Assembly: GCA_937931165.1 (NCBI GenBank)
Contig: CALHCI010000152.1
Location: forward strand, 1-64,000
Source of the DNA: an uncultured Granulosicoccaceae bacterium
Lineage (GTDB): Bacteria > Pseudomonadota > Gammaproteobacteria > Granulosicoccales > Granulosicoccaceae
Length of the DNA: 64,000 nucleotides
Direction: 5' to 3'
In this document: positions 22,112-36,299 of the stretch, piece after piece
Layout of the letters: the number at the start of each line of letters is the position of its first letter
Position numbering within the stretch: position 1 is the stretch's first letter
Program-made: the position numbers and the translations under genes
The notes under the pieces: generated by a model
Seen by the model: only the letters and a program-made list of their open reading frames with translations
The model's database searches: none
What the model was told of the DNA's origin: nothing

Positions 22112-25100
22112 CTATCGTTCGAAGGTATAAATGAGGTCTGCGCTGGACACATCGCTCTTCGCTGCAATCAGAGATAACAACTCGGTGAATTTGTATCGCA
22201 GATTATAGGTTTTTGATTTACTGATCAGATCGATACCATAGCTGACATATAAATCCGGCGTGATGTACTTACCCAGCGTGTAGCTAACGCCGGCTGTACC
22301 TACCGGTCTGCCAAGAAGAATATAAGAGAGGGTATTAGCATCGGTTTGTGCCGGGTCGGATTGCAGTTGTAATAACGGCGCTTGTGCTGTCCCGCGGATT
22401 CTTGCACCGGCTTTAACTTCGTACGCTGGTACCTCACGCGCAACATCGAGCTCCAGCGCCGGGTTGGTTACCGGACCACCGCCAAACAGGATACGACCAC
22501 TCTCCATAGTGAGTTTTTGACCGTAAACCAAAAAGTCACCACTGACCACCTCGATAGCACCGACGCCTGTTGGCACACCACCCGGCTGTTGTTCAATGGT
22601 TACCGCACCGGCTAACGCACCGTCGAACTGGCCGGCCTTGACGCGGATGTCATCACCGAGCGTTACTTCAACATTGATTGTCATGCGACTGGCATCTGAT
22701 TGTGCATCAGTGTCGTTGTCGTTGTTTACCAGTACCACATCGGGGGATTCTCTGACCAATGCGGCTTCCGCACCCGCCTGATAAAAAGCGGTCGGCACAT
22801 GCAACTTGCCAGTAATCGTTATGTCGTCACCCTTTTTTATTACCCGCAAGTCTGGACTGACCAGCAGGCGTTGATTTTTAGCATTGGCAACCTGAAAGTT
22901 CTCGCCTTTAATCGTGACATCAGCGTCCTGGGTGGCTGGATCAAATTTGCCATTCAGATCGATCTTGCCATCACCGGATACGGCGCTGCCACTGAGGATT
23001 AAACCGCCCTTGCCATCGCTGCGCGCCACCACTTTACCGTCGATCAGTTTCATTGCAACCGATGGTACTTCCAGCACTAAGGCATCGAGATCAGAATCAC
23101 CAATCACTTTGGGAGCATCCACTGTCCCTGCAAGCTGCATGGATGTATTGAGTGAACCCTTGAATGAGTCGAGCCCCGGTGCAAAGGCACTGAATAGCGC
23201 AAGGTCTTTCAGATCTGTTTTAACCGAACCGCTCAGGTTCCTGGCACCGGACAATTCACCTATATTTGCGACGGATGATAACGTGCCGATTTCACCGAGG
23301 TTGAGATCGACGCGTGACTTCAGACTGTCATCTGAATAATCAAACTCGACCGTGTTTTCTCCAAGTGTTGTCGTGCGCGGCTCTCCTGCGTCCAGGTAAT
23401 CGAGCTGTCCACCGGGAAGCGCAAGTGCGCCTTTAACGACCGGTGCACCACCTGGCCTGACAGACAGATCTACCTGCCCGCTCACTAACGCGTCGAGGGT
23501 GATGTCTGGTGGCAGGTAATCTTTAAAACGAAGCGTATCCAGTGACGTAATATCAACGATTGATTCAACACCGTTTTTTTCATCCCACGAAGCATCAATA
23601 CATACTTTGCTCGGCTTGCTCTCCAAACAAACGGCGCTGGCATTAACTCCGTTAGCGCTTGCCGTTACCGGTACGGGTTGTTGCAGCACCCAGTCGCCAA
23701 ACTCTGTGTCGGTCAGATCGAGTTGTTCAAGGGTACCCTGCCAGGCATTGTCCTTTACTCTTCCAGTTGCGTTCAGGGCAAAATCAACCAGCTCACTGTC
23801 AGCGGTTATCACTGCGCTGTGCTCGGCAGGAGTTCCCTGCCCACTGACACTGACCTTACTCACTACCTGGCCGGCGGCCTCAACATCTTTCAGATCCAGT
23901 TTGAAGGTCGACTTCTCACCACCGCTAAGATCAATGACTCCTGTGCCTTCGCCACTCACTATACTTACAGCGTCGGACTTCAAACTATCAATGGCCAGTG
24001 TAAATTCTGACATTGGCGTCGCACGTGTACCCGAAACAACACCGGCTACTTTAATATCACCCTGTACCCCGGGTACCAGACTACCGATAGATTGAGCGTT
24101 GAGATCCCAGTTCAAGTCGAGAGATTCACCCACTGTTCCATTAGCATTGACTGACACTGCACCAGCGCCAAGCACCAGTTGCTTAATATTGGTAGTGCCC
24201 TTGTCTATAACGATGACACCGGAGCCTGACAACGGTTGATTACGATAAGACCCGGTGACTTCTTTTAAAGTGGTTTCAACAGATAATCCATCATTTCCCA
24301 GTTGCCCGCTGCTATTTAAAGCAAACCCTACATCTCCTTGCAGGCCCGGCCACTTCTCGGCAGGGTTCAGCCCGTTGCCCGTTAAGTCAATTTGCCAATC
24401 CGGTTGGGGCGCCCAACTCGCGAGACCGGCGCCGGTAATTACACCTGCCAGGGTTTCTCCTTTTAATGTAATCTCACTTAGCTGTTGCTGATCACCGAGC
24501 GCTGACAGATTCCAATTACCTTCAGGAACCTGTGCCCCCTCAACTTCAATTTCTGCTCCGACACGGTAACCGTCAAAAGGACCGTCAACGGTAAAGCTGC
24601 CTTGCGGTATGTTGATCAGGGCGTCGCCCTGGGGCACCACTAAAGGCCAACTAAATTGCGTAAGATCACCTTCCAGTGCAACACTGGATTGCGCTACATT
24701 CACTTGACCATTAACTATAATAGCGGCTTCTTCATTACCGGTATTAATTTGCAATGAGTTAATGGCAATAATATCCGGCGTACGTGTAATACTGGCATCT
24801 ACCACCAGATCACCCACTTCAGGTTGCGAGATATCTATCGTTGAAACAACTTGCAGGTTGTCGGGCACACCGGTAACTTTCAGTTGTCCCTTGGGGCTTT
24901 GTGTCACCAGCGCCTGTTCCTGTGGCAACGGCCAACGCAGATCCTGCCAGCTAACGGTGATGTCGCTGTTCAAATCAGACAGCGCAAGACTGCCTTGTGC
25001 GGACAGATTGGTTGGTGAATCCTCGAACATTAATTGAAGCTGTTTAATATTCAGCGCTTCGAGGTCCCCCTGCAAATCGTAGTTACTATCTACTTCACCA

Positions 25101-26023
25101 GTCACCGGATGACGCGTCTGCAGAGCACCACTGACGGAGTAATCCTGCAATGAACCGGTGCTGTTCGCGTTAACCGTTAAAGGTATACCACTGGCGGCCG
25201 GGGCAAACACGCCGAGATCATCCGAATTAATAGCGATGTTTGCCAGCCACGATAACTCGGCGGTGACATCATTCACTTCTGCATCAACGATAACGGACAA
25301 TGGCTCAGCAGCACCCGGCCCGGTTACCTGATGATTGACTACCAGAGATTTGGTCGTACCGGTGACACTGCCAGTACCACTAAACTGTCCTAATTGTTTA
25401 TGGGTAAACTGCCATTGCGGCTCAAGGTTAACCGGCCAGTCACCGGAGGTATCCAGCGACCCGTTCATTGATATCTGCAGCTGTGGTGAAGCAACCTGCA
25501 AGTCCACTAACTTCAAAGAACTCTGCTGACCTTGTGCGGTAAGCTTAATATCATCAATGACAAATGGTTCAGTTGCACCAAATGGATAAATATTTAACGC
25601 ACTAATGTGCATGTTTTTTATATCCGCACTAACCGGTAACGCAAGATCGCGCAGCTGGAAAGGCTGGGATTCGCCTTGCTTCTCAGACGGCGGCGGCAGA
25701 TAAATATCCACGCCCTGCAAAGATAGATCATCAACCTGAACCGAGCGGCTGAGTAGTTTTTTTGGTTTCCAGTCGAAGCGGGCTTCGTTGATTTTGACTG
25801 ATGCGCCACCCTCGTTAATATAGGAAACGTCTTCAAACCTGGCGGGCCCTATTAACGCCCCGGAGGACTTTCCAACCACCAATTCTCCTGTGGCATAGCT
25901 CTGCCCCAGTGAAAACAATCGCTGCAGACCACCATGTGTCATGGTTACATAGGCCAGCACTGCAAGCAGCAACAACAAAACCAATAGCAGCAACAGCCCA
26001 ACGCGTTTTAATACGGCCATCAT
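22112..26023 (-). CDS. tamB: Translocation and assembly module subunit TamB
   Basis: 1303 residues. A single N-terminal inner-membrane helix (MMAVLKRVGLLLLLVLLLLL onward) is followed by a very long repetitive beta-strand-rich body (AsmA/DUF490-type beta-taco) and the conserved C-terminal TamB domain (RILFGGGPVTNPALELDVAR, LSYILLGRPVG). TamB spans the periplasm and works with TamA in outer-membrane protein insertion and lipid transport. Its ribosome site AGGAGCGC overlaps the tamA stop, so it is coupled to tamA, 6 bases upstream. Two adjacent ATGs are available. Confidence 0.93.
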   Translation of the reverse strand: MMAVLKRVGLLLLLVLLLLLAVLAYVTMTHGGLQRLFSLGQSYATGELVVGKSSGALIGPARFEDVSYINEGGASVKINEARFDWKPKKLLSRSVQVDDLSLQGVDIYLPPPSEKQGESQPFQLRDLALPVSADIKNMHISALNIYPFGATEPFVIDDIKLTAQGQQSSLKLVDLQVASPQLQISMNGSLDTSGDWPVNLEPQWQFTHKQLGQFSGTGSVTGTTKSLVVNHQVTGPGAAEPLSVIVDAEVNDVTAELSWLANIAINSDDLGVFAPAASGIPLTVNANSTGSLQDYSVSGALQTRHPVTGEVDSNYDLQGDLEALNIKQLQLMFEDSPTNLSAQGSLALSDLNSDITVSWQDLRWPLPQEQALVTQSPKGQLKVTGVPDNLQVVSTIDISQPEVGDLVVDASITRTPDIIAINSLQINTGNEEAAIIVNGQVNVAQSSVALEGDLTQFSWPLVVPQGDALINIPQGSFTVDGPFDGYRVGAEIEVEGAQVPEGNWNLSALGDQQQLSEITLKGETLAGVITGAGLASWAPQPDWQIDLTGNGLNPAEKWPGLQGDVGFALNSSGQLGNDGLSVETTLKEVTGSYRNQPLSGSGVIVIDKGTTNIKQLVLGAGAVSVNANGTVGESLDLNWDLNAQSIGSLVPGVQGDIKVAGVVSGTRATPMSEFTLAIDSLKSDAVSIVSGEGTGVIDLSGGEKSTFKLDLKDVEAAGQVVSKVSVSGQGTPAEHSAVITADSELVDFALNATGRVKDNAWQGTLEQLDLTDTEFGDWVLQQPVPVTASANGVNASAVCLESKPSKVCIDASWDEKNGVESIVDITSLDTLRFKDYLPPDITLDALVSGQVDLSVRPGGAPVVKGALALPGGQLDYLDAGEPRTTTLGENTVEFDYSDDSLKSRVDLNLGEIGTLSSVANIGELSGARNLSGSVKTDLKDLALFSAFAPGLDSFKGSLNTSMQLAGTVDAPKVIGDSDLDALVLEVPSVAMKLIDGKVVARSDGKGGLILSGSAVSGDGKIDLNGKFDPATQDADVTIKGENFQVANAKNQRLLVSPDLRVIKKGDDITITGKLHVPTAFYQAGAEAALVRESPDVVLVNNDNDTDAQSDASRMTINVEVTLGDDIRVKAGQFDGALAGAVTIEQQPGGVPTGVGAIEVVSGDFLVYGQKLTMESGRILFGGGPVTNPALELDVAREVPAYEVKAGARIRGTAQAPLLQLQSDPAQTDANTLSYILLGRPVGTAGVSYTLGKYITPDLYVSYGIDLISKSKTYNLRYKFTELLSLIAAKSDVSSADLIYTFER

Positions 26024-26029
26024 GCGCTC

Positions 26030-27922
26030 CTACAAGTCCGGCCCGATGGATAAGTGCAAACGCACGTTACCTTCACCGGGATCGTTCATTTTACGCGCAA
26101 CATCGACACGCACCGGTCCGATGGGCGATTGCCATCGCAACCCTACTCCCAGTCCAAAGCGGTACTCCGGTCGATCATCAAAGGCATCACCAAAATCACT
26201 AAAGGCAGCCCAGCTGAAACTTTCATTCAGAGGCACCTCGTACTCAGCACTAAACTCAAGCAGGTGACGTCCGCCCTGCGGTTCGTTGCTTTCATCGACC
26301 GGAGCGATGGTCTGAAACTCAAAACCACGTACTGATGCATCACCACCGGCGTAATAACGCAGTGACGATGGTAACTTATCGTAGTTGTCTACCCAGGTAG
26401 TCGCAGCACTGGCTCTGGCGAGAAAGCGATGGTTATTCGCAAACGTTTTGATGACTTTAGTTGATATTTGTGGCTGTATAAAGCTGGTGTCAGACCACAG
26501 AGATTCTGACGCCCCGCGCAACCCCAATTGCAACCAGGTACCGTTGATGGTGTTTATTCTCTTTTCAAGTTCTGCCGGATAAGTTCGAGTCCACTCCAGA
26601 CTGGGGATCAACAGACGCGACAATGAGCTTTCGCCGTTAGCCACAAACTCTTCCAGATTAAAATCGACAGCGTAGGTTTTTAACCAGAACCCGTCTCTAA
26701 ACCGATAACTGCCACCGAAACTAAAGCCCTTAAAATCTCTTTCTTCGTGCTCTCTTTCAATGCCTATCCGAATACCGTAGCTGTCAGTGCGCGGGTCACC
26801 GGTAGGAATGGTGTAGCCTGCTGAGACACTATAACCAATCTCTGATAACTGACCCTCAGCTTTGTAGTGATGTCCGCGACGGTTCACTCGTCGGCCGTCC
26901 ACCCCTACTTTTACTCGCGTGCGGGTATCTGTGCCGTAACCGATACCGACAACATATTCACGCGGCTTTATATGTGTAAGATCAACTTTAACCGGTATCA
27001 CCCGGTCTTCGGCTTCCAGCGCTGACGCTCTGACATCCACTCGCTTATAGTAATTTGAATTGGTGAGATCACTCTGCAAAGCCTGAAGCTCTCCGGCATC
27101 GAAATAATCCTGATCTTCAAGCTCTACGTAACGACCAAGCAGATCGTCAGAGATCCAGTCAATATCCTGTGTAATGACGGCTTCCCCAATGCGGTATCGC
27201 GGTCCCGGATCGAGCTCCAGAGCAATTTCGGCAGTGTAGTTTTTTACATCGATACGGATTTGCTGTTGAGTAAACTCCGCATCAAAAAAGCCGTAGCGCG
27301 CCGCAGAAGTTTGCATGGCTTGTTTAAGTTTGTCGTAAGCCTGTTGGTTAAGGGGCTGGCCCTGTTTTAAGTTGGCCGTTTCCCGAGCCTCACAGAAATC
27401 GATAACCAGTGTCTTGTACTTGTTAAAGTCATCATCAGCCACTTCGATTTCCGGCAACAGGCTTTTGCGATCACGCGCGCGGTAGCGAAAATCCTGACAG
27501 TCAACAACTACATCTTTCAACGAGATCAACGGCTCACCGGCAATTCGTACCCGGTCGTTCGGGTTGACCCGATAGATGGCCGTCCATTTGGAACCGACAT
27601 CGGTCAGCTCAGACTCTATGGTCGGTCGATAGTAGCCAAACGGACGAAGGGCAGCTTCAATCTGCTCCTCGGCTCGACTGTGCAAAAATCGAAGTCGCGG
27701 TATAGAGGTAATGTCTTTATCTTCAAGAGCTCGAATTGCAAGAAAGCCTTCAATGTTCGTCTTTAACGCTTTATCAACGCCGCTGATCAGAATACTGAGT
27801 TTTTTGATCGAGGTATCCGTCCCGTTTTGTGCAGAAGATGCACACATCAGCAGGCCGAACAGGCAGCAGATACCTGTCAACCGGACTACCGCGCTGGTTG
27901 GATTAGCAATACTTGCGATCAT
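26030..27922 (-). CDS. tamA: Outer-membrane assembly factor TamA
   Basis: 630 residues. A signal peptide (cleavage near CASSAQNG, about residue 32) precedes three POTRA domains (about residues 40-310) and a C-terminal 16-strand barrel of the Omp85/BamA family. The barrel includes GRRVNRRGHHYKAEGQLSEI, YYAGGDASVRGF (the conserved VRGF lock motif) and the final GPVRVDVARKMND. It lies directly before tamB. No strong Shine-Dalgarno is seen before the ATG at 27922. Confidence 0.93.
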   Translation of the reverse strand: MIASIANPTSAVVRLTGICCLFGLLMCASSAQNGTDTSIKKLSILISGVDKALKTNIEGFLAIRALEDKDITSIPRLRFLHSRAEEQIEAALRPFGYYRPTIESELTDVGSKWTAIYRVNPNDRVRIAGEPLISLKDVVVDCQDFRYRARDRKSLLPEIEVADDDFNKYKTLVIDFCEARETANLKQGQPLNQQAYDKLKQAMQTSAARYGFFDAEFTQQQIRIDVKNYTAEIALELDPGPRYRIGEAVITQDIDWISDDLLGRYVELEDQDYFDAGELQALQSDLTNSNYYKRVDVRASALEAEDRVIPVKVDLTHIKPREYVVGIGYGTDTRTRVKVGVDGRRVNRRGHHYKAEGQLSEIGYSVSAGYTIPTGDPRTDSYGIRIGIEREHEERDFKGFSFGGSYRFRDGFWLKTYAVDFNLEEFVANGESSLSRLLIPSLEWTRTYPAELEKRINTINGTWLQLGLRGASESLWSDTSFIQPQISTKVIKTFANNHRFLARASAATTWVDNYDKLPSSLRYYAGGDASVRGFEFQTIAPVDESNEPQGGRHLLEFSAEYEVPLNESFSWAAFSDFGDAFDDRPEYRFGLGVGLRWQSPIGPVRVDVARKMNDPGEGNVRLHLSIGPDL

Positions 27923-28117: not shown

Positions 28118-31100
28118 CTACGCCCTGTGCTTTTCGGTTTCTGATATCAAACCGGCAATCACCTCGGTCGCGCTAATCATATCCGGCATCGAGTGGCCTT
28201 CGGTGAACTGCTCTGCCAGTGGCATCAGGATATCCCGCGCTTCAAAGGCATTTCCGTTGGCAACCAGGTATTTTGCAAAATCGGTTGCGATTCGCAGCGC
28301 ATACCATTTCATGTTCATTGTTTGCGCAGTTTCAAGTGCGTGTTCAAAAGCCAGGGTAGTCTCGGCACCATTGCCCTTTAGCTGCGCGTTTGCCATCGCA
28401 ACGATTCTCAGCAATTCAGGATCCTCGATCCGGACACCGGTCTGCGCAGAGTCTGTAAGCGCATTTTTTGCGGTGGCGAGTGCGAGTTCGGCTTTGCCCA
28501 GTGACAACAGCGCATTGGCAGATTGAGCGAGCATATACGGTGTATGCATTCGCATGTGCATTTCGTCGTTATACACTTTAAGCACAGGATCTATTGAATC
28601 GATAACCTGCTGGTACTGCCCCACCAGTGACATTAAACCCGGATGGACAATGGACTCTGCCACTCGCCACAATGACAGATCGTGTTTTTCATTAAGCGCA
28701 CGCAAACCGGCAAGTGTTTGCTTTACTCTGTCGAGCAAACGTAAAGACACAAACATATTGCCGCCGTGGAATAATACGACGCCCAGTGTATTGGCGTGAT
28801 TGATATATTCAGCGCGTGCCAGTGCCTGATCGAACAAATCAATAGCCTGTTCCGGGTAGCCGCAATGCAGCCGTGTCCATGCAGCTATCACCTTGGCGGT
28901 GGCTTCAATGTCCTGGCCGTAGACCGAAGGCATAGATCCACCGGTTTCCGGCGCTACGTATTTGGCAGCTTTAGCCAAATGCTCGTTGGCAATGTGCGGT
29001 TGTCCGCCAATCAGATTCGCAAAACCAACAATCCTCTGCCCTTGCACAGTAGTTTCATGCTGACCCACACTCTGTGCAAGCGTTAAAAACTCCTCGGCCT
29101 GCCGGGTAGCTTCCTCAACCAGACCGGTATGCAATTGAAATACAAATTTGCCGTACAACACCGGGAAAATTCTGTCAGTTTCATCGGCCTGCTCAGCCAG
29201 TGCCAGTGACCGCTGGGTATTCTGATCCATTTCTTCTGAACCATAGCCACCTATCGCGATTAACGGGCCGGTAAGGTCCATGTGCAGACTCAGGTTCTGC
29301 TGCACTCTTTCAGAGGTGGATGGTAATTGCTCAAGTATATGAATAGCTCTTCGCAACTGCGCTACTGATTCCGCATCGGCCGAGCGGCCGGCAGATCGTT
29401 TGCCCGCACGATGCCAGTAGGCAATGGCCGACTCATCGCTGGCTGCTTCGGTGTAATGATGCGCCACCAGTTCGGGGGCAATTTCTACGGTTTGCGGAAA
29501 CTCGTTAACAAGCGCGTTGGCAACGTTTTGATGTTGTTGCTGCCTGACATCGCTCAGCATGTTCTCGTAGATTGAGTCCTGCACCAATCCATGTTTAAAG
29601 GTATAAACAATATGATTCGTGGTGCCGGATTGAAACAGAAATTCTGTCTGCACCAACTGGTTTAAGCCGATTGTCAGAGTGTTGAGCTTATCTCTGGCAA
29701 CGGCTTCCAACAGGTCTGCGGGAACCTCACGGCCGATTACCGCTGCAATTTGAATGATCTCCTTGGCCTGCTGACCAAGCCTGTCTATACGTGCCAGCAA
29801 TGACGCTTGTAGCGTGGCGGGAATATCGGCCTCGGCAATATCGAGTCCGCCTTCTACCAGAGACTTGGTCAGCTCTTCTATAAAGAGCGGAATCCCGTCT
29901 GTTCGACTGACAATGCGCTCGACGACATCCTCTGAGATAAAATCTCCGGCAACCGCCCTGACTATAGACGCGCATGATGCTTTACCCAGCCGGTTAAGCT
30001 GCAGTGAAGATATATTGTTGTGCCCAAGCAGATTCGGCTGCCAGTCAGACCGATGCGTCACCACCAGCAACACACGCGATTGCTCGAGTCTGCCAATAAA
30101 CAGCTCCAGAAACTCTTCACTCGCAGGGTCGATCCAGTGTGTATCTTCCACCAGAAACAACACGGGTTCTTTTTCGGCTAACAGAAACACCTGATTCAAC
30201 AACACTTCAAGCGTGCGCGACTTGATCTCCTGCGGTGTCAGATCAAGCGGTCCGTAGCGATGCTCGAATGGCAGCGATAACAGGTGAGCAAAAATTTGCG
30301 CATCAATGGTGCTTCCACCGGCTGACTGCTGCAACAGCGCTTCGAGCTTGTCGAGTTTTTGGTCTGTGGTGTCACCGGTCTCGAAGCGAGCGGCCCGCTG
30401 CAATTGAGATATCACCGGGTAAAACGCACTGGTCGAAAAGTGCGGTGAGCACTGATAGCGCAGGGCAACATGCGGAAAGTTAGTCACTTCGTGGCGAAGC
30501 CCTTCGACCAGTCGAGATTTGCCGATACCCGCCTCACCGGAAACAAAAACTGCCTGACCCTCACCACCACAGGCAAGCTCCCAACGATCAAGCAGCAGCA
30601 TGAGTTCTGTGTTGCGTCCAAATAGCGGATTGAGTGCAGAATTGCGATTGGATTCGAAGCGACTGGCAATCGCCCTTGTTGCTACCACACGCCATGCATT
30701 GATCGAACTGTTAAAGCCTTTAAGTTCGTGTGCACCGAAATCGGCAAACTCAAAACCACCACCTGCCAGGCGTCGCGTGGTGTCGGATACAACCACACTT
30801 CCAGGACTTGCCAGCGCCTGCAATCGCGCGGCAAGGTTAGGGGTTTCACCGACTACCGTTCGCTCCTGCGCCGGCCCCTGCCCTAATAAATCGCCAACAA
30901 TGACACGACCGCTTGCGATACCAACTCGAACCTCGATATCTGTCGAGAGACGGCATGCCTCGGTGACAGCAAGGCCGGCAGACACAGCTCTTTCAGCATC
31001 ATTTTCATTGGCTCGCGGGTAACCGAAATAGACCAGAACACCATCTCCCATATAGCGAGCGACAAAACCGCCAAGCGGCTCTACCGCTTCGGTGCAGGCC

Positions 31101-31510
31101 CGCTGAAAGCCGGCGATAATGCTGCGTAGTTGCTCGGGATCGAGACTGGTTGATAACGCCGTGGAGCCGACCATATCGCAGAACATCACGGTCAGCAGCC
31201 GGAACTCCGCTTCGACCGGCATGCGCTCCGATGCAAAATTTGATGCTAATGGCTGCAACTCCGGGACGACTTCCGACGCTGAATCATTGAGCTGCGAAAT
31301 AGCGACAAGCAACATTTTGCGATCTGCCAGACGTGTTACGCCAAGGTCTTTTAAATCGTCGTTGTTGATATCCGGTAACAATGCCCAGTCAATGGCATTT
31401 TCTTCGAAGGTCCCGACGAGATGTTCAAACCCCAGATCCGCGAGCCATTTACGAACATCTTTGTCCAAAAGAAAGTCTCCAACATCATGTTGAATTTTAT
31501 CGGGCGCCAA
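28118..31510 (-). CDS. SAM / class III cyclase / AAA ATPase / TPR signalling protein
   Basis: Up to 1130 residues. Order: SAM-like domain (DKDVRKWLADLGFEHLVGTF, LPDINNDDLKDLGV, about 15-75), class III nucleotide cyclase domain (about 100-275; VMFCDMVGSTALS and MGDGVLVYFGYP carry the metal-binding Asp residues), a large AAA/STAND ATPase (Walker A GEAGIGKSRL, Walker B FLVEDTHWID), then TPR-like helical repeats to the end. It may make cAMP in response to a protein or ligand signal. The TTG at 31510 has AGGAG abutting it; a TTG at 31468 with GGAG spaced 8 bases is a better start and begins right at the SAM domain. Confidence 0.88.
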   Translation of the reverse strand: MAPDKIQHDVGDFLLDKDVRKWLADLGFEHLVGTFEENAIDWALLPDINNDDLKDLGVTRLADRKMLLVAISQLNDSASEVVPELQPLASNFASERMPVEAEFRLLTVMFCDMVGSTALSTSLDPEQLRSIIAGFQRACTEAVEPLGGFVARYMGDGVLVYFGYPRANENDAERAVSAGLAVTEACRLSTDIEVRVGIASGRVIVGDLLGQGPAQERTVVGETPNLAARLQALASPGSVVVSDTTRRLAGGGFEFADFGAHELKGFNSSINAWRVVATRAIASRFESNRNSALNPLFGRNTELMLLLDRWELACGGEGQAVFVSGEAGIGKSRLVEGLRHEVTNFPHVALRYQCSPHFSTSAFYPVISQLQRAARFETGDTTDQKLDKLEALLQQSAGGSTIDAQIFAHLLSLPFEHRYGPLDLTPQEIKSRTLEVLLNQVFLLAEKEPVLFLVEDTHWIDPASEEFLELFIGRLEQSRVLLVVTHRSDWQPNLLGHNNISSLQLNRLGKASCASIVRAVAGDFISEDVVERIVSRTDGIPLFIEELTKSLVEGGLDIAEADIPATLQASLLARIDRLGQQAKEIIQIAAVIGREVPADLLEAVARDKLNTLTIGLNQLVQTEFLFQSGTTNHIVYTFKHGLVQDSIYENMLSDVRQQQHQNVANALVNEFPQTVEIAPELVAHHYTEAASDESAIAYWHRAGKRSAGRSADAESVAQLRRAIHILEQLPSTSERVQQNLSLHMDLTGPLIAIGGYGSEEMDQNTQRSLALAEQADETDRIFPVLYGKFVFQLHTGLVEEATRQAEEFLTLAQSVGQHETTVQGQRIVGFANLIGGQPHIANEHLAKAAKYVAPETGGSMPSVYGQDIEATAKVIAAWTRLHCGYPEQAIDLFDQALARAEYINHANTLGVVLFHGGNMFVSLRLLDRVKQTLAGLRALNEKHDLSLWRVAESIVHPGLMSLVGQYQQVIDSIDPVLKVYNDEMHMRMHTPYMLAQSANALLSLGKAELALATAKNALTDSAQTGVRIEDPELLRIVAMANAQLKGNGAETTLAFEHALETAQTMNMKWYALRIATDFAKYLVANGNAFEARDILMPLAEQFTEGHSMPDMISATEVIAGLISETEKHRA

Positions 31511-31662: not shown

Positions 31663-33243
31663 CTACAGCAGGCGTTTCTCTTCGAGAATATCCGGCAGAT
31701 CATTCTCATACAGAACGACATCTGCGGCAGTTAGGGCAAGTTCTGCCAGTTGTTTTCGCGCCTCCTGCAGCGAAGGCACCTGAATCAACGTTGCATCTGT
31801 GTTGCTTATCGCCGATCCAAACGTCGGAATTCTCTCGGGGTTTACCACCACCACCACATCACAGAGCTTTGCGCAGTGTGCGCCAAGGCGTGCGTGAACC
31901 GTATCATGTTCATTGCCAAGTTCGGCGATACCCGGTGTCACCACTATTGCTCGACCGCCGCGCTCTACTGCGAGTTGCTTCAACACTTCTATCGCATTGG
32001 AAAAGCCTTTCTCGTTGGAGTTGTAGGCATCATCAAGAATGGCCGCCTCACCGGGTGCTTCGCGTAGCTCAAGACGGTGCGTTACCTGTTGCAGCTCTGC
32101 CATTTTCGGCGCCAGATGCTTCAGTAATGATGTATCAAGTGCGTGAACAAGCGCGACCGCTAACGCAGAATTCATGACATTGTGATTGCCCAGCAACGGA
32201 ATGGTGTAGTCGAATGTTTCTGCAGGCCCGAAACGCAGACGGATATGCCATTTGCCGTCTTTTAGATGACTGCTTTCGATGCGAACATCACAGTCCTGCT
32301 TGTGACCGACAACAATAAAACACTTTTTATTTTGCTCTCGCAACTGCAGAAACGGCAGATGGGTCATGACATCTTCACTGGTGACAAGCGTGCCCTGCTG
32401 TGAACAAACCCATTGTGCAAGCTCTGCCTTGGCCTTGGCCGTGGTTTCGATGCCACCAAAGCGCTCTGCATGTGCCTCACCAACAGCGGTGACGATTCCA
32501 AACCGTGGTTGCACGAATTCGCAAAGACGCTGGATTGAGCCTCTTTGGTATGCGCCCATCTCTGCGACAAAGTAGCGATGCGCAGGTTGCAGCCTCTGCC
32601 GAATGTGTCTTGTCAGGCCTAACACGGTATTGACGCTACCCTTGCTGTAAAATACCGGACCACCGACTTCGAGCATCTCGGCAAGCATATGTTTGACGGT
32701 GGTTTTACCAAATGAACCGGTCACACCAATACGTTGCACGTTGCTTTCACCAAGACGAAGCCGCGCTTCGTTGACAAAGCTTTGATTGGTTCGATTCTGT
32801 GACGGTTGCAGCACAAGGTTGGCGATAACAATAACAAGCGGTACTGCCTGCAGTGCAACGATTGCGGCAGGCAGATACAGGCTTGAAACCAGAGCCAGCA
32901 ACACCAACATGCAAAGTGCGACAGCTCTGATTCGTTTTAGTCTTGCCGTGTTAACCAGAGGTTTTTTGTATTGGTAACGGTGCTCGCGAAACGCAATGGC
33001 CAGCAGCACAACTGATAGCACAATCAGGATCAGACTACGATTTCCAACTGCTGCAATCAGTAACAATGAGACAGCAATAGCGATAGAAGCGATGACATCG
33101 AATAGCCGGACATCTTTCCATGCGCTAAAAAAACGCTTGCTGTCGTACTCTTCCTGTTGAAAATACACCAACTGGGTGTTGCAACGAACCGCCAGCAGAA
33201 TGGCAAGCGCGAGACCAAACAACAACGGCGCAATAGAGGTCAT
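31663..33243 (-). CDS. Membrane-anchored MurF-like Mur ligase
   Basis: 526 residues. Instead of the MurF domain that binds UDP-MurNAc-peptide, the first 150 residues hold four or more membrane helices (about 5-20, 50-85, 108-147). The central and C-terminal ligase domains are good MurF matches: P-loop GSFGKTT at residues 176-182, SKGSVNTVLGLTRHI, VAEMGAYQRGSIQRL, VGEAHAERFGG, GNHNVMNSALAVAL and ILDDAYNSNEKGFSNAIEVL. Mur ligases form an amide bond between a carboxylate and an amine using ATP. The ATG starts 2 bases after the stop of the alpha/beta hydrolase gene. It is probably not the cell's housekeeping MurF, because that domain is missing; the acceptor is unknown. Confidence 0.85.
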   Translation of the reverse strand: MTSIAPLLFGLALAILLAVRCNTQLVYFQQEEYDSKRFFSAWKDVRLFDVIASIAIAVSLLLIAAVGNRSLILIVLSVVLLAIAFREHRYQYKKPLVNTARLKRIRAVALCMLVLLALVSSLYLPAAIVALQAVPLVIVIANLVLQPSQNRTNQSFVNEARLRLGESNVQRIGVTGSFGKTTVKHMLAEMLEVGGPVFYSKGSVNTVLGLTRHIRQRLQPAHRYFVAEMGAYQRGSIQRLCEFVQPRFGIVTAVGEAHAERFGGIETTAKAKAELAQWVCSQQGTLVTSEDVMTHLPFLQLREQNKKCFIVVGHKQDCDVRIESSHLKDGKWHIRLRFGPAETFDYTIPLLGNHNVMNSALAVALVHALDTSLLKHLAPKMAELQQVTHRLELREAPGEAAILDDAYNSNEKGFSNAIEVLKQLAVERGGRAIVVTPGIAELGNEHDTVHARLGAHCAKLCDVVVVVNPERIPTFGSAISNTDATLIQVPSLQEARKQLAELALTAADVVLYENDLPDILEEKRLL

Positions 33244-33245
33244 TA

Positions 33246-33986
33246 TTAAGAGACTCCGATCAGATCTTTGATTGACAGAGCGATCTGATGACGGCCACGG
33301 TTTAAGATATCAATATGTCCAAACTCGGGGCAACAGACTAGCTGTGATCCTGTGATGAGTGCGTTGAGTTTCTCACCAATGGCTACCGGTGTTTCTGTGT
33401 CACGATTACCGTATACGAGTGTGGTAGGTGTGGTTATTTTTTGTGCATCATCACTTTGATTTTCTGAAATCACTTTGACAAAGATATCTCGCAAACCCAA
33501 CTCTGCACTTTGAATGTAGTCTGCACTTCCATATTGCCGTTCGAGCTGTTGTGTTTCCTCAGGAGTGGTGGCTTTGCGCTTTGCCTGCTTGAATCTGAAC
33601 TGACGATAAACACGCTTTAACCGCCGGGCGCTGGAATTGGGCACCGGGATACCAGCGCTTGCGACCAGTACCAGCCCACTCAATAATTCCGGATGCCGCA
33701 CCGCCAGTTGCAGACCCACCCTGCCCCCGAATGAATGCCCGACCCAAATCACTTTTGCGTGCCCGCGATCTTTCAGGAACTGCGCACAATGGTCTGCATA
33801 CTCACTGGAACCCCAGGTTTCTTCAGGCCTTGGTGTTTCACCAAATCCGGGTAAGTCGAGAAGAACAGAATGCGCTATGGGTGCAAGCGACTCTGCTACC
33901 TGTATAAAATCGTGGTAGCTGCGCGCCCACCCATGTGCAAAAACTACCGGAGTTGCGTTTTCGTTACCAATGCTAACGTGGTTCAT
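33246..33986 (-). CDS. Alpha/beta hydrolase fold protein
   Basis: 246 residues from the ATG at 33986, which has AGG about 5 bases upstream; an upstream start at 34061 would add 25 residues without conserved sequence. Fold markers: oxyanion HGW (FAHGWARSYHD), nucleophile elbow GHSFGG, Asp in GNRDTETP and His in FGHIDIL. No signal peptide. The substrate is unknown. It forms an operon with the membrane MurF-like gene and is divergent from a Ddl-like gene, which suggests it acts on an intermediate or product of those ligases. Confidence 0.87.
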   Translation of the reverse strand: MNHVSIGNENATPVVFAHGWARSYHDFIQVAESLAPIAHSVLLDLPGFGETPRPEETWGSSEYADHCAQFLKDRGHAKVIWVGHSFGGRVGLQLAVRHPELLSGLVLVASAGIPVPNSSARRLKRVYRQFRFKQAKRKATTPEETQQLERQYGSADYIQSAELGLRDIFVKVISENQSDDAQKITTPTTLVYGNRDTETPVAIGEKLNALITGSQLVCCPEFGHIDILNRGRHQIALSIKDLIGVS

Positions 33987-34002
33987 ATTGCCTGTGATCA
34001 GT

Positions 34003-34031
34003 CCTATAATGCGCGCTGTCGACACGCACAA
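34003..34031 (-). promoter_or_regulatory. Putative promoter of the hydrolase/MurF-like operon
   Basis: Read on the minus strand, TTGTGC (34026-34031), 17 bases, then TATAGG (34003-34008), about 17 bases before the hydrolase ATG. It lies in the 193-base divergent region shared with the Ddl-like gene. Confidence 0.45.
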
Positions 34032-34179
34032 CACACGCACAATAATACACTTGTAGAACACGCTTGACTCGCTCTATCAGTCAATGATGCAGCGCTGCAC
34101 GTTACACCTGTGTATTAATCACACCCACGGGCTTTACAGCTGCTAGTTTGAAGCTCAGGGAAACTTTCCGGAATCGTCA

Positions 34180-35346
34180 GTGCAGACTCAAAGAAAAATC
34201 AGGATCGCAGTAATCTTCGGAGGCCCCAGCCAGGAGCACGACGTCAGCGTAGTCACGGCATCACAGTTAATGGATGCTGTCGATAGTCGTAATTTTGAAG
34301 TACTGCCGGTGTATGTGGACTTTGAGAATCGCTTCCTGACCGGGCCCGAACTTCGTGATATCACCAGATTTCGCCCCAGACCACCGGGCTTGCGCCCCAT
34401 CACGTTTCTTTGGAGCGACGCGGGACCTGCATGCCGCATCGGAAACGCAGAACCTCTGAGAGTCGATTGCGTTCTCCCGGTGTTCCATGGCCCGTTCGGG
34501 GAAGACGGAAGAATACAGGGGTATTTCGAAACCATCGGCATCCCGGTCACCGGCTTTTCTTCAATCAACTCTGCCATTGCCATGCGGAAAGACGCTACCA
34601 AGGCGCTGGTTAAAACCGTCGGGGTTAACGTGCTCTCACACGTATCGGTCAGTCGGGATACTGCCGGTCTGACTGAGACGCACCATCAGATAGAAGACGA
34701 AATCGGCTATCCGGCAATCGTTAAGCCGTGCCATCTGGGCTCAAGCATTGGCGTTGGTGTGGCCAACAACGCATCTGAACTAACCGCGGCCATCGAGCAC
34801 GTGCTGGCACTGGATTCAATTGCACTGGTCGAGCCGCGAGTAAACAACCTGGTTGAATATAATGTAGCGCTGCGCAAAGGTGCCGGTGGCACGGTTCACC
34901 TGTCGGCCATAGAAACGCCGAAAAGCGTTACCGATTTACTGGACTTCCGCGAGAAGTATCTGGCCAGTGAGGATGGATCTTCCGGAGGTGCCAAAGGTGA
35001 CTTCCTGCCGTCGCAGGGCATGCTGTCACTCACCAGAGACATCAACCCGCAATTGCCTCCAGAATTTCAAGATAAGTTATATCAATATGCTCGCAGCGCT
35101 TTTCAAATACTCGGCAACCGCGGGGCACCCAGAATAGATTTTCTTTCAGATGCCGAGACCGGTGAACTGTGGTTCAACGAGATCAACCCTATTCCCGGGT
35201 CGTATGGATTTTTTCTTTGGGAGGCGGCAAGCGAACCATTGTTGTTCCCCGAATTGATTACTCACCTGGTGCAGGAAGCGCAGCTGACATCACTCAAAAG
35301 TTTCGATGACCCCGTTCCGGAAGGCGCTAGATTATTGCCTCGATGA
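34180..35346 (+). CDS. D-Ala-D-Ala ligase-like ATP-grasp ligase with altered active site
   Basis: 388 residues from a GTG. ATP-grasp ligase of the Ddl family: VIFGGPSQEHDVS, VFHGPFGEDGRIQGYFE, PCHLGSSIGVGV and the metal/phosphate motif FNEINPIPGS are present. Three residues of the E. coli DdlB hydrogen-bond triad can be compared: Glu15 is kept (Glu19), but the omega-loop Tyr216 is Phe256 (LLDFREKYL) and Ser281 is Phe345 (GSYGFFLWE). In the ligase family a Phe at the Tyr position occurs in Leuconostoc Ddl2, which makes D-Ala-D-lactate. This protein may therefore join D-Ala to something other than D-Ala. It is divergent from the hydrolase/MurF-like operon. Confidence 0.83.
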   Translation: MQTQRKIRIAVIFGGPSQEHDVSVVTASQLMDAVDSRNFEVLPVYVDFENRFLTGPELRDITRFRPRPPGLRPITFLWSDAGPACRIGNAEPLRVDCVLPVFHGPFGEDGRIQGYFETIGIPVTGFSSINSAIAMRKDATKALVKTVGVNVLSHVSVSRDTAGLTETHHQIEDEIGYPAIVKPCHLGSSIGVGVANNASELTAAIEHVLALDSIALVEPRVNNLVEYNVALRKGAGGTVHLSAIETPKSVTDLLDFREKYLASEDGSSGGAKGDFLPSQGMLSLTRDINPQLPPEFQDKLYQYARSAFQILGNRGAPRIDFLSDAETGELWFNEINPIPGSYGFFLWEAASEPLLFPELITHLVQEAQLTSLKSFDDPVPEGARLLPR

Positions 35347-35489
35347 TCACCTCCTGGTAATCAGCAAGAGGACCCTGCAATCCGGGGCCACTGGTACTTT
35401 TTTCCGTTATCTATTGTTCACAATTCCCTCCCCGTGTGCGGCACAAATGGTGTGCGAAGCTTCTCGATGCACTAATTTGTGGTTCGTAC

Positions 35490-36299
35490 ATGAAATTTAC
35501 TCTGGGCTTCTTGCTCACGCTGGCCGTATTTTCATCTTCACTACACGCCCAAACACGCGAAAAAGATCGCGATACTGTGTTGCTTGGTTTCAGTACCACA
35601 GCCGTCGCGATGACCGCCTGGGGAATCGCCCGCTGGGACTGGTTTCAGCATAGTCCGAAGTTCAAGCGCGAAGGCTGGTTCGGTGCAGATACCCATGCAG
35701 GTGGTGCCGATAAAACCGGACACTTTTATATGTCTTACGCGCTGGCAGATCTGCTGCTATGGGACTTTCGACGACAAGGGGTTAGCAAGCCTGAGAAAAA
35801 AGCGGCGCTGACAGCACTGGCAACCATGACACTGCTGGAGATTGGTGATGCCACTTCGTCAAAATACGGTTTTTCGCTTGAAGATCTGATTGCTGATGCC
35901 GGCGGGGTACTGGCGTCCTGGGTACTGGCAAAAAACCCGCATCTCGATGATCTGATAGACATTCGCATGGAATACTGGCCATCCGCAGGATTCGATCTGA
36001 CAGAGGATGCTGCCTCTGACTACTCCGGCATGCGTCATTTGATTGCCTTGCGTGCAGATGCGATACCGCGCTTGTCAAAAACGCCATTGCGATTTCTGGA
36101 ATTACAAACCGGCTATTACACCAGAGGGTTTAGATCATTCGATCGCCCACTTGAAAACGGCCCCGAAAGACATGTTTATCTGGGTGTTGGCATAAGTCTT
36201 CCCACAGTGTTTAAACACAATAGTGCCGCTAAAACGATATTCAGCTACCTGCAGCCACCAAACCTGAATATCTCAACAAGCTATCGCTTCCAGGACTGA
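35490..36299 (+). CDS. DUF2279 (YfiM-like) secreted protein
   Basis: 269 residues from the ATG at 35490, which begins a clean signal peptide (MKFTLGFLLTLAVFSSSLHA); an earlier start would add a charged, non-secretory extension. The body (GADTHAGGADKTGHFYMSYA, LEIGDATSSKYGFSLEDLIADAGG) matches DUF2279, a family of periplasmic or outer-membrane-associated proteins with unknown function. The C-terminus (YLQPPNLNISTSYRFQD) resembles a terminal beta strand. It follows the Ddl-like gene on the same strand after about 140 bases. Confidence 0.8.
   Translation: MKFTLGFLLTLAVFSSSLHAQTREKDRDTVLLGFSTTAVAMTAWGIARWDWFQHSPKFKREGWFGADTHAGGADKTGHFYMSYALADLLLWDFRRQGVSKPEKKAALTALATMTLLEIGDATSSKYGFSLEDLIADAGGVLASWVLAKNPHLDDLIDIRMEYWPSAGFDLTEDAASDYSGMRHLIALRADAIPRLSKTPLRFLELQTGYYTRGFRSFDRPLENGPERHVYLGVGISLPTVFKHNSAAKTIFSYLQPPNLNISTSYRFQD

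Follow-up and report, generated by a model that had tools for sequence, protein, structure and literature searches.

The MurF reaction is regarded as a cytosolic step common to all peptidoglycan synthesis, and the enzyme as an antibacterial target; in textbooks, the stem peptide is completed before MraY acts. A 64,000-nucleotide stretch from an uncultured Granulosicoccaceae bacterium (contig CALHCI010000152.1, positions 1 to 64,000; hereafter the window) encodes a three-gene cassette that bears on this step, composed of a Mur ligase with a membrane domain (mMurF), an alpha/beta hydrolase and a Ddl-type D-Ala-D-Ala ligase. Judged by gene content and gene order, the cassette very probably replaced canonical murF and ddl. 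It is best read as the main D-Ala-D-Ala-adding system of this cell, since searches of the genome turned up no second murF or ddl and the division and cell wall (dcw) cluster lacks both.

The mMurF protein shares with canonical MurF the Mur middle and C-terminal domains, the P-loop, the Mg-binding Glu and His, the carbamylated-Lys position and the DDxYNxN motif; it is also paired with a Ddl and occupies the genome in place of MurF. It differs in having five membrane helices, in lying outside the dcw cluster and in falling on a separate side of a supported branch. The cassette Ddl resembles canonical Ddl in its N-terminal and C-terminal (ATP-grasp) domains and in all active-site residues checked, but is longer, is encoded with mMurF outside dcw and, in the proteobacterial group, carries an insertion after the omega-loop. 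In van clusters, too, genes for Ddl-family ligases lie outside dcw, and their products act at the stem-peptide terminus; unlike these clusters, the cassette appears to replace the native genes instead of supplementing them, and its ligase has a D-Ala-type omega-loop. One of the closest described systems is MurT, a Mur ligase that, like mMurF, lacks the UDP-binding domain. This subunit of the lipid II isoglutaminyl synthase acts on lipid II (PMC6113224, PMC3266927), and the authors of its structure considered a domain binding UDP-N-acetylmuramic acid (UDP-MurNAc) unnecessary there and likely to clash with the membrane (PMC6113224). MurT, however, works with the glutaminase GatD, amidates D-Glu and has a short N-terminus without a multi-helix membrane domain. 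Against the MurT profile, with a cut-off of 800 bits, mMurF scores 15.5 bits, and clustering of neighbouring open reading frames (ORFs) identified no GatD-type neighbour conserved beside the trio across groups.

Canonical murF and ddl in cassette-bearing genomes

The genome to which the window belongs is 4.86 Mb and 94.9% complete. A Mur_ligase_M search returned six genes, five of which were assigned by NCBIfam to MurC, MurD, MurE, Mpl and FolC, with mMurF as the sixth and the only candidate ligase found for the addition of D-Ala-D-Ala. The sole true Ddl is that of the cassette, and the genome searches found no second murF or ddl. The dcw contig (L044) has the order murE-mraY-murD-ftsW-murG-murC-ftsQ-ftsA-ftsZ, in which murE-mraY and murC-ftsQ are contiguous and the usual sites of murF and ddl are empty. 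The murE-mraY junction is present in all four readable cassette genomes of the genus (this one, G009, G002 and G004) and the murC-ftsQ junction in all three that have that site on the contig, the contig of G009 being too short. In the cassette-free sister species (G003, G006 and G010) the order is murE-murF-mraY ... murC-ddl-ftsQ, and the remainder is collinear. Incomplete assembly as the cause of the missing genes is ruled out in the four genomes read, where murE and mraY are contiguous. Across the 14 genomes of the genus, five encode mMurF with no canonical MurF match and nine encode canonical MurF with no mMurF; the hydrolase and the start of the Ddl flank mMurF in all four other cassette genomes.

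The same pattern is observed outside the genus. A sample of 150 Rhodobacteraceae genomes, searched at 1e-40, contained four with mMurF only, 141 with canonical MurF only and none with both, and a clostridial order (101 genomes) contained 82, 14 and one, respectively, the last being a partial ORF at a contig edge. The mutual exclusion of canonical MurF and mMurF thus appears near-strict in three groups. Direct reading of dcw clusters identified murE followed by mraY, with no murF between them, in Pelagimonas, Lentibacter, Actibacterium, three Clostridia and one Acidimicrobiia. Among 42 genomes fetched through mMurF-type matches, MurF scored above its cut-off in only three (two Bacillaceae and Yoonia maritima), and most had a single Ddl. 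Roughly 33 of the 90 Patescibacteria genomes with a match have one covering the membrane region, as counted from the listed coordinates, and one patescibacterial genome (G302) has a second Mur-type match.

The two Bacillaceae belong to a different cluster and were left out of the family. Their loci (L124:2938-8034 and L125:1642-11447, from Allobacillus and Oceanobacillus) encode a soluble MurF of approximately 370 amino acids without the N-terminal domain, an adjoining Ddl and ATP-grasp ligases that resemble the N-terminal part of cyanophycin synthetase, with an Asp/Glu racemase and a peptidoglycan amidase also in L125. Both genomes carry canonical murF and ddl as well, and this cluster is the better candidate for a genuinely additional peptide-ligation pathway.

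Five genomes retain a full-length dcw MurF ORF between murE and mraY in addition to the cassette: three of Yoonia and one each of Pseudooceanicola and Maritimibacter (L141-L145). These were aligned with eight control MurFs, from five mMurF-free Rhodobacteraceae, one sister-genus member, one clostridial and one patescibacterial genome. In all eight controls the GKT, the Glu that binds Mg, the His and the position of the carbamylated Lys are intact. Of the five retained copies, all lack the basic residue after the P-loop, four read GKA or GKS in place of GKT, three have Lys where the Glu should be, three lack the His and the carbamylated Lys, and two no longer have the YNAN of DDxYNxN. As P-loop and metal-binding residues are lost relative to the controls, these ORFs were dismissed as a counter-example. 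Such decay of what appear to be relic MurFs would follow from a takeover of the function by another enzyme, and it is a line of evidence independent of the deletions. The catalytically degenerate proteins may have a non-enzymatic role.

The membrane Mur ligase, the hydrolase and the Ddl

The Pfam scan of mMurF identified Mur_ligase_M (3e-31, residues 174-365) and Mur_ligase_C (1.2e-9, residues 389-511) but no N-terminal UDP-binding Mur domain. Its score against the murF model TIGR01143 is 204.8 bits, for a cut-off of 288.6, with the match starting from profile position 58, and no Pfam or NCBIfam model singles out the mMurF family. The AlphaFold2 model, built from a 41-sequence alignment (predicted local distance difference test score, pLDDT, 92.3; predicted template modelling score 0.84), places helices at residues 4-30, 47-66, 69-88, 100-122 and 134-166 ahead of the P-loop, followed by a Mur fold. 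The top Foldseek hits are MurF structures, with approximately 380 columns aligned, including 4cvk, the Pseudomonas aeruginosa MurF with UDP-MurNAc-tripeptide; the 50 best comprise Mur ligases and subunits of plastid RNA polymerase structures. Residues K180, T181, E228, H258, D404, D405 and N408 are invariant in 41 homologues.

The density of Lys plus Arg per residue is 0.19 in loop 31-47 and 0.30 in loop 86-106, compared with 0.05 in the two opposite loops. Because of this concentration, the protein is predicted to have an N-outside/C-inside topology with the ligase in the cytosol. Two predicted cytoplasmic loops carry Q29 and Y33 (as Q-x3-Y in one of them), T99 and R101, of which the first three are invariant and the last is R or K in 41 sequences ranging from Gammaproteobacteria to Patescibacteria. 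Their conservation at the membrane face suggests that substrate may be bound there and that the domain is not a mere tether. The mMurF ORFs of two Clostridia (G392:C14 and G420:C73) are longer, at 622 and 641 amino acids, and their profile match is split in two, suggesting an insertion in the Mur core.

The active-site residues of the Ddl, including the omega-loop Lys-Tyr pair, are invariant in 32 sequences, two of which are canonical dcw Ddl controls. Among Ddl and Van ligases, Tyr at this site marks D-Ala-D-Ala rather than D-Ala-D-Lac ligases. The window Ddl scores 212.2 bits against TIGR01205, for a cut-off of 245.65, and some cassette Ddl proteins of Clostridia and Patescibacteria exceed this cut-off. 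Its scores against Van ligase profiles are far below their cut-offs.

The hydrolase is predicted to adopt an alpha/beta hydrolase fold (AlphaFold2 pLDDT 96.6) with a Ser-Asp-His triad, Ser86-Asp197-His225 in alignment numbering, that is invariant in 34 homologues. Structure comparison matches it to generic esterases and lipases (the phospholipase A PlaF first, then ABHD6 and BioH-like proteins), and an assignment of function from the fold was dropped as uninformative. The conserved residues indicate an active-looking serine hydrolase that would serve the same pathway, since the gene is strictly retained and likely co-transcribed with mMurF. Its stop lies at 33246, upstream of the mMurF start at 33243 with a gap of 2 bp, and the Ddl gene is transcribed divergently. 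Homologues make ATG at 33986 the more likely start of the hydrolase over GTG at 34061. The intergenic region contains two sigma-70-like matches, on the + strand only, which are consensus matches and not functional evidence.

Table 1. Features of the cassette (window coordinates).
Feature	Position	Strand	Length	Basis
mMurF (membrane Mur ligase)	31663..33243	-	526 amino acids	ORF and Mur_ligase_M/C
Five-helix N-terminal membrane domain of mMurF (residues 1-166)	32746..33243	-		AlphaFold2 helices, hydropathy, positive-inside loops
P-loop GVTGSFGKTTVK (mMurF residues 173-184)	32692..32727	-		GSFGKTxVK invariant in alignment
Alpha/beta hydrolase	33246..33986	-	~246 amino acids	Pfam Abhydrolase_1, 2.4e-24
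Divergent intergenic region	33987..34179	.	193 bp	Between hydrolase and ddl
Ddl-type D-Ala-D-Ala ligase	34180..35346	+	388 amino acids	Pfam/NCBIfam, both Ddl domains
Omega-loop Lys259-Tyr260 of Ddl (D-Ala-D-Ala-type signature)	34954..34959	+		32-sequence alignment

The original prediction, made from the window alone, agrees with these results in several respects. The ORF check places the three genes as it had described them, with the hydrolase 2 bp upstream and the Ddl divergent. The MurF-like protein does retain its ATP and ligase motifs, and membrane helices do stand where the UDP-MurNAc domain belongs. A membrane-linked acceptor and a dipeptide supplied by the Ddl to the MurF-like enzyme, both of which it had proposed, are likewise supported, the former by the replacement of the UDP-binding domain.

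Several other genes surround the cassette. A 1130-amino-acid protein with a SAM domain, an adenylate/guanylate cyclase domain and AAA_16 is encoded at 28118-31510 (- strand); it is related to the TOMM kinase/cyclase family, below the family cut-off, and proteins of this type adjoin the cassette in several cassette-bearing Granulosicoccaceae. Directly downstream of ddl, at 35436-36299 (+ strand), lies a gene for a DUF2279/VanZ-like predicted envelope protein, whose association with the trio is not conserved elsewhere. A TamA/TamB pair, the outer-membrane translocation and assembly module, occupies 22112-27922 (- strand). The region 38142-58615 is lower in GC content and has the look of an island for surface polysaccharide; its genes encode large Kelch/TSP3 and DUF11 proteins besides glycosyltransferases, NDP-sugar enzymes and a sulfotransferase.

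Distribution and conserved neighbourhood

A total of 84,980 species genomes were scanned and the flanks of the matches were read. The complete hydrolase-mMurF-Ddl trio is found in Rhodobacteraceae (Yoonia, Pacificibacter, Actibacterium, Pelagimonas, Maritimibacter, Pseudooceanicola, Antarcticimicrobium and others), Hyphomonadaceae, many metagenome-assembled genomes (MAGs) of Clostridia, Acidimicrobiia and several Patescibacteria, and Francisellaceae carry the hydrolase and mMurF as a pair. The usual order in Clostridia and Acidimicrobiia is hydrolase, mMurF and Ddl on one strand; most proteobacterial loci, like two of Patescibacteria (L127 and L131), have the Ddl on the opposite strand. Neighbour-ORF clustering identified only these three families as widely common to different groups. 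The trio is more than a chance arrangement, because many genomes from several phyla have it and no other neighbourhood is common to the groups; the original prediction had treated the three genes as one system, and this strong conservation fits that view.

Pairwise protein distances of the trio correlate (Spearman 0.68-0.73, 29 loci), as expected if the three proteins travel together, although shared ancestry alone also gives correlation. In a quick tree with several long branches, mMurF forms one side of a branch separating it from canonical MurF (Shimodaira-Hasegawa-like approximate likelihood ratio test 99). The Granulosicoccaceae proteins fall among the alphaproteobacterial mMurF proteins in this tree, which suggests horizontal transfer. 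No match was found in a plasmid collection at 1e-40.

Acceptor, product and consequences

In the proposed mechanism, the Ddl would make D-Ala-D-Ala and mMurF would join it to a muramyl-tripeptide, with ATP and the normal Mur acyl-phosphate chemistry. The acceptor would be a lipid-linked tripeptide (lipid I or lipid II) in the inner leaflet. UDP-MurNAc-tripeptide would then go to MraY, and the stem would be finished on the lipid, after MraY and perhaps after MurG. In model bacteria, MraY and MurG can use precursors with a tripeptide stem, so that a reordered pathway would be feasible. The hydrolase would possibly remove a wrong or dead-end product, or act on a lipid-linked intermediate. Penicillin-binding transpeptidases, which use the pentapeptide, are present in ten of the ten cassette genomes checked, and the pentapeptide is therefore presumably still needed. 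Taken as a whole, replacement of murF and ddl, addition of D-Ala-D-Ala at the lipid stage and a hydrolase within the pathway form the best explanation, and one that we hold to be probable. The lipid-linked acceptor by itself is reasonably likely, because five helices appear to anchor mMurF in the membrane and the UDP-MurNAc-binding domain is missing.

Several points weigh against this explanation. Some of the genomes are MAGs that are 80-95% complete, although the contiguous murE-mraY junctions are independent of completeness, and two Francisellaceae loci have no Ddl beside mMurF in the stretches read. The lipid-linked acceptor is argued from domain architecture and analogy, and a membrane-tethered mMurF could take UDP-MurNAc-tripeptide through its core domains. 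The fold matches of the hydrolase are generic and point to no one role. No biochemistry was found for any member of the trio, and the evidence consists of sequence and predicted structure.

The alternative that survives best, though we consider it unlikely, is that mMurF replaces MurF yet uses soluble UDP-MurNAc-tripeptide, with the membrane domain serving as a tether beside MraY for channelling and the order of the pathway unchanged. Gene replacement is established independently of the substrate, and the middle and C-terminal domains match MurF structures solved with UDP-MurNAc-tripeptide, such as 4cvk, so both are compatible with this view; it sits less well with the membrane domain in place of the UDP-binding domain, with the invariant residues at the membrane face, and with the action on lipid II of MurT, another Mur-fold enzyme without that domain (PMC6113224).

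A far less probable alternative is that the product of the cassette is a stem with a modified end (D-Ala-D-Lac or D-Ala-D-Ser) and altered antibiotic susceptibility, in the manner of van clusters. A MurF/Ddl pair can be dedicated to ends of this kind, and the window Ddl does fall below the curated D-Ala-D-Ala ligase cut-off, but the omega-loop Lys-Tyr is invariant across phyla, DD-transpeptidases are present, the Van ligase scores are far too low and neighbour-ORF clustering found no vanH- or vanX-like gene conserved beside the trio across groups. D-Ala-D-Ala is accordingly the inferred product, and a depsipeptide or D-Lac ligase, including the depsipeptide unit of the original prediction, is disfavoured by the same Lys-Tyr pair. 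The further idea in that prediction, a dedicated peptide or depsipeptide pathway running alongside normal peptidoglycan synthesis, matches the gene set and the membrane ligase it described but is hardly credible given that no other MurF or Ddl was found in the genome, the dcw copies are gone and exclusion of canonical MurF is near-strict in three groups. A genome with no further murF or ddl is the outcome that the prediction itself had named as refuting it.

The lipid-stage reading involves known enzyme superfamilies in a new architecture, a new gene module and a probable new substrate carrier. No description of a membrane MurF was found in the literature, in a search limited to open-access papers, so that this absence is not proof. 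We hold with moderate confidence the broader view of a widespread alternative order of precursor synthesis, in which the hydrolase would be an obligatory third part and the module would have moved between phyla, displacing murF and ddl. Hosts of this transferable module would include Rhodobacteraceae, Clostridia (many from gut samples), candidate-phyla bacteria and others, among them culturable organisms such as Pelagimonas, Actibacterium and Yoonia. If lipid-stage addition is true, the order of the peptidoglycan pathway is not fixed, genomes apparently lacking murF or ddl would be explained, and the finding would matter for inhibitors aimed at the UDP-binding pocket of MurF.

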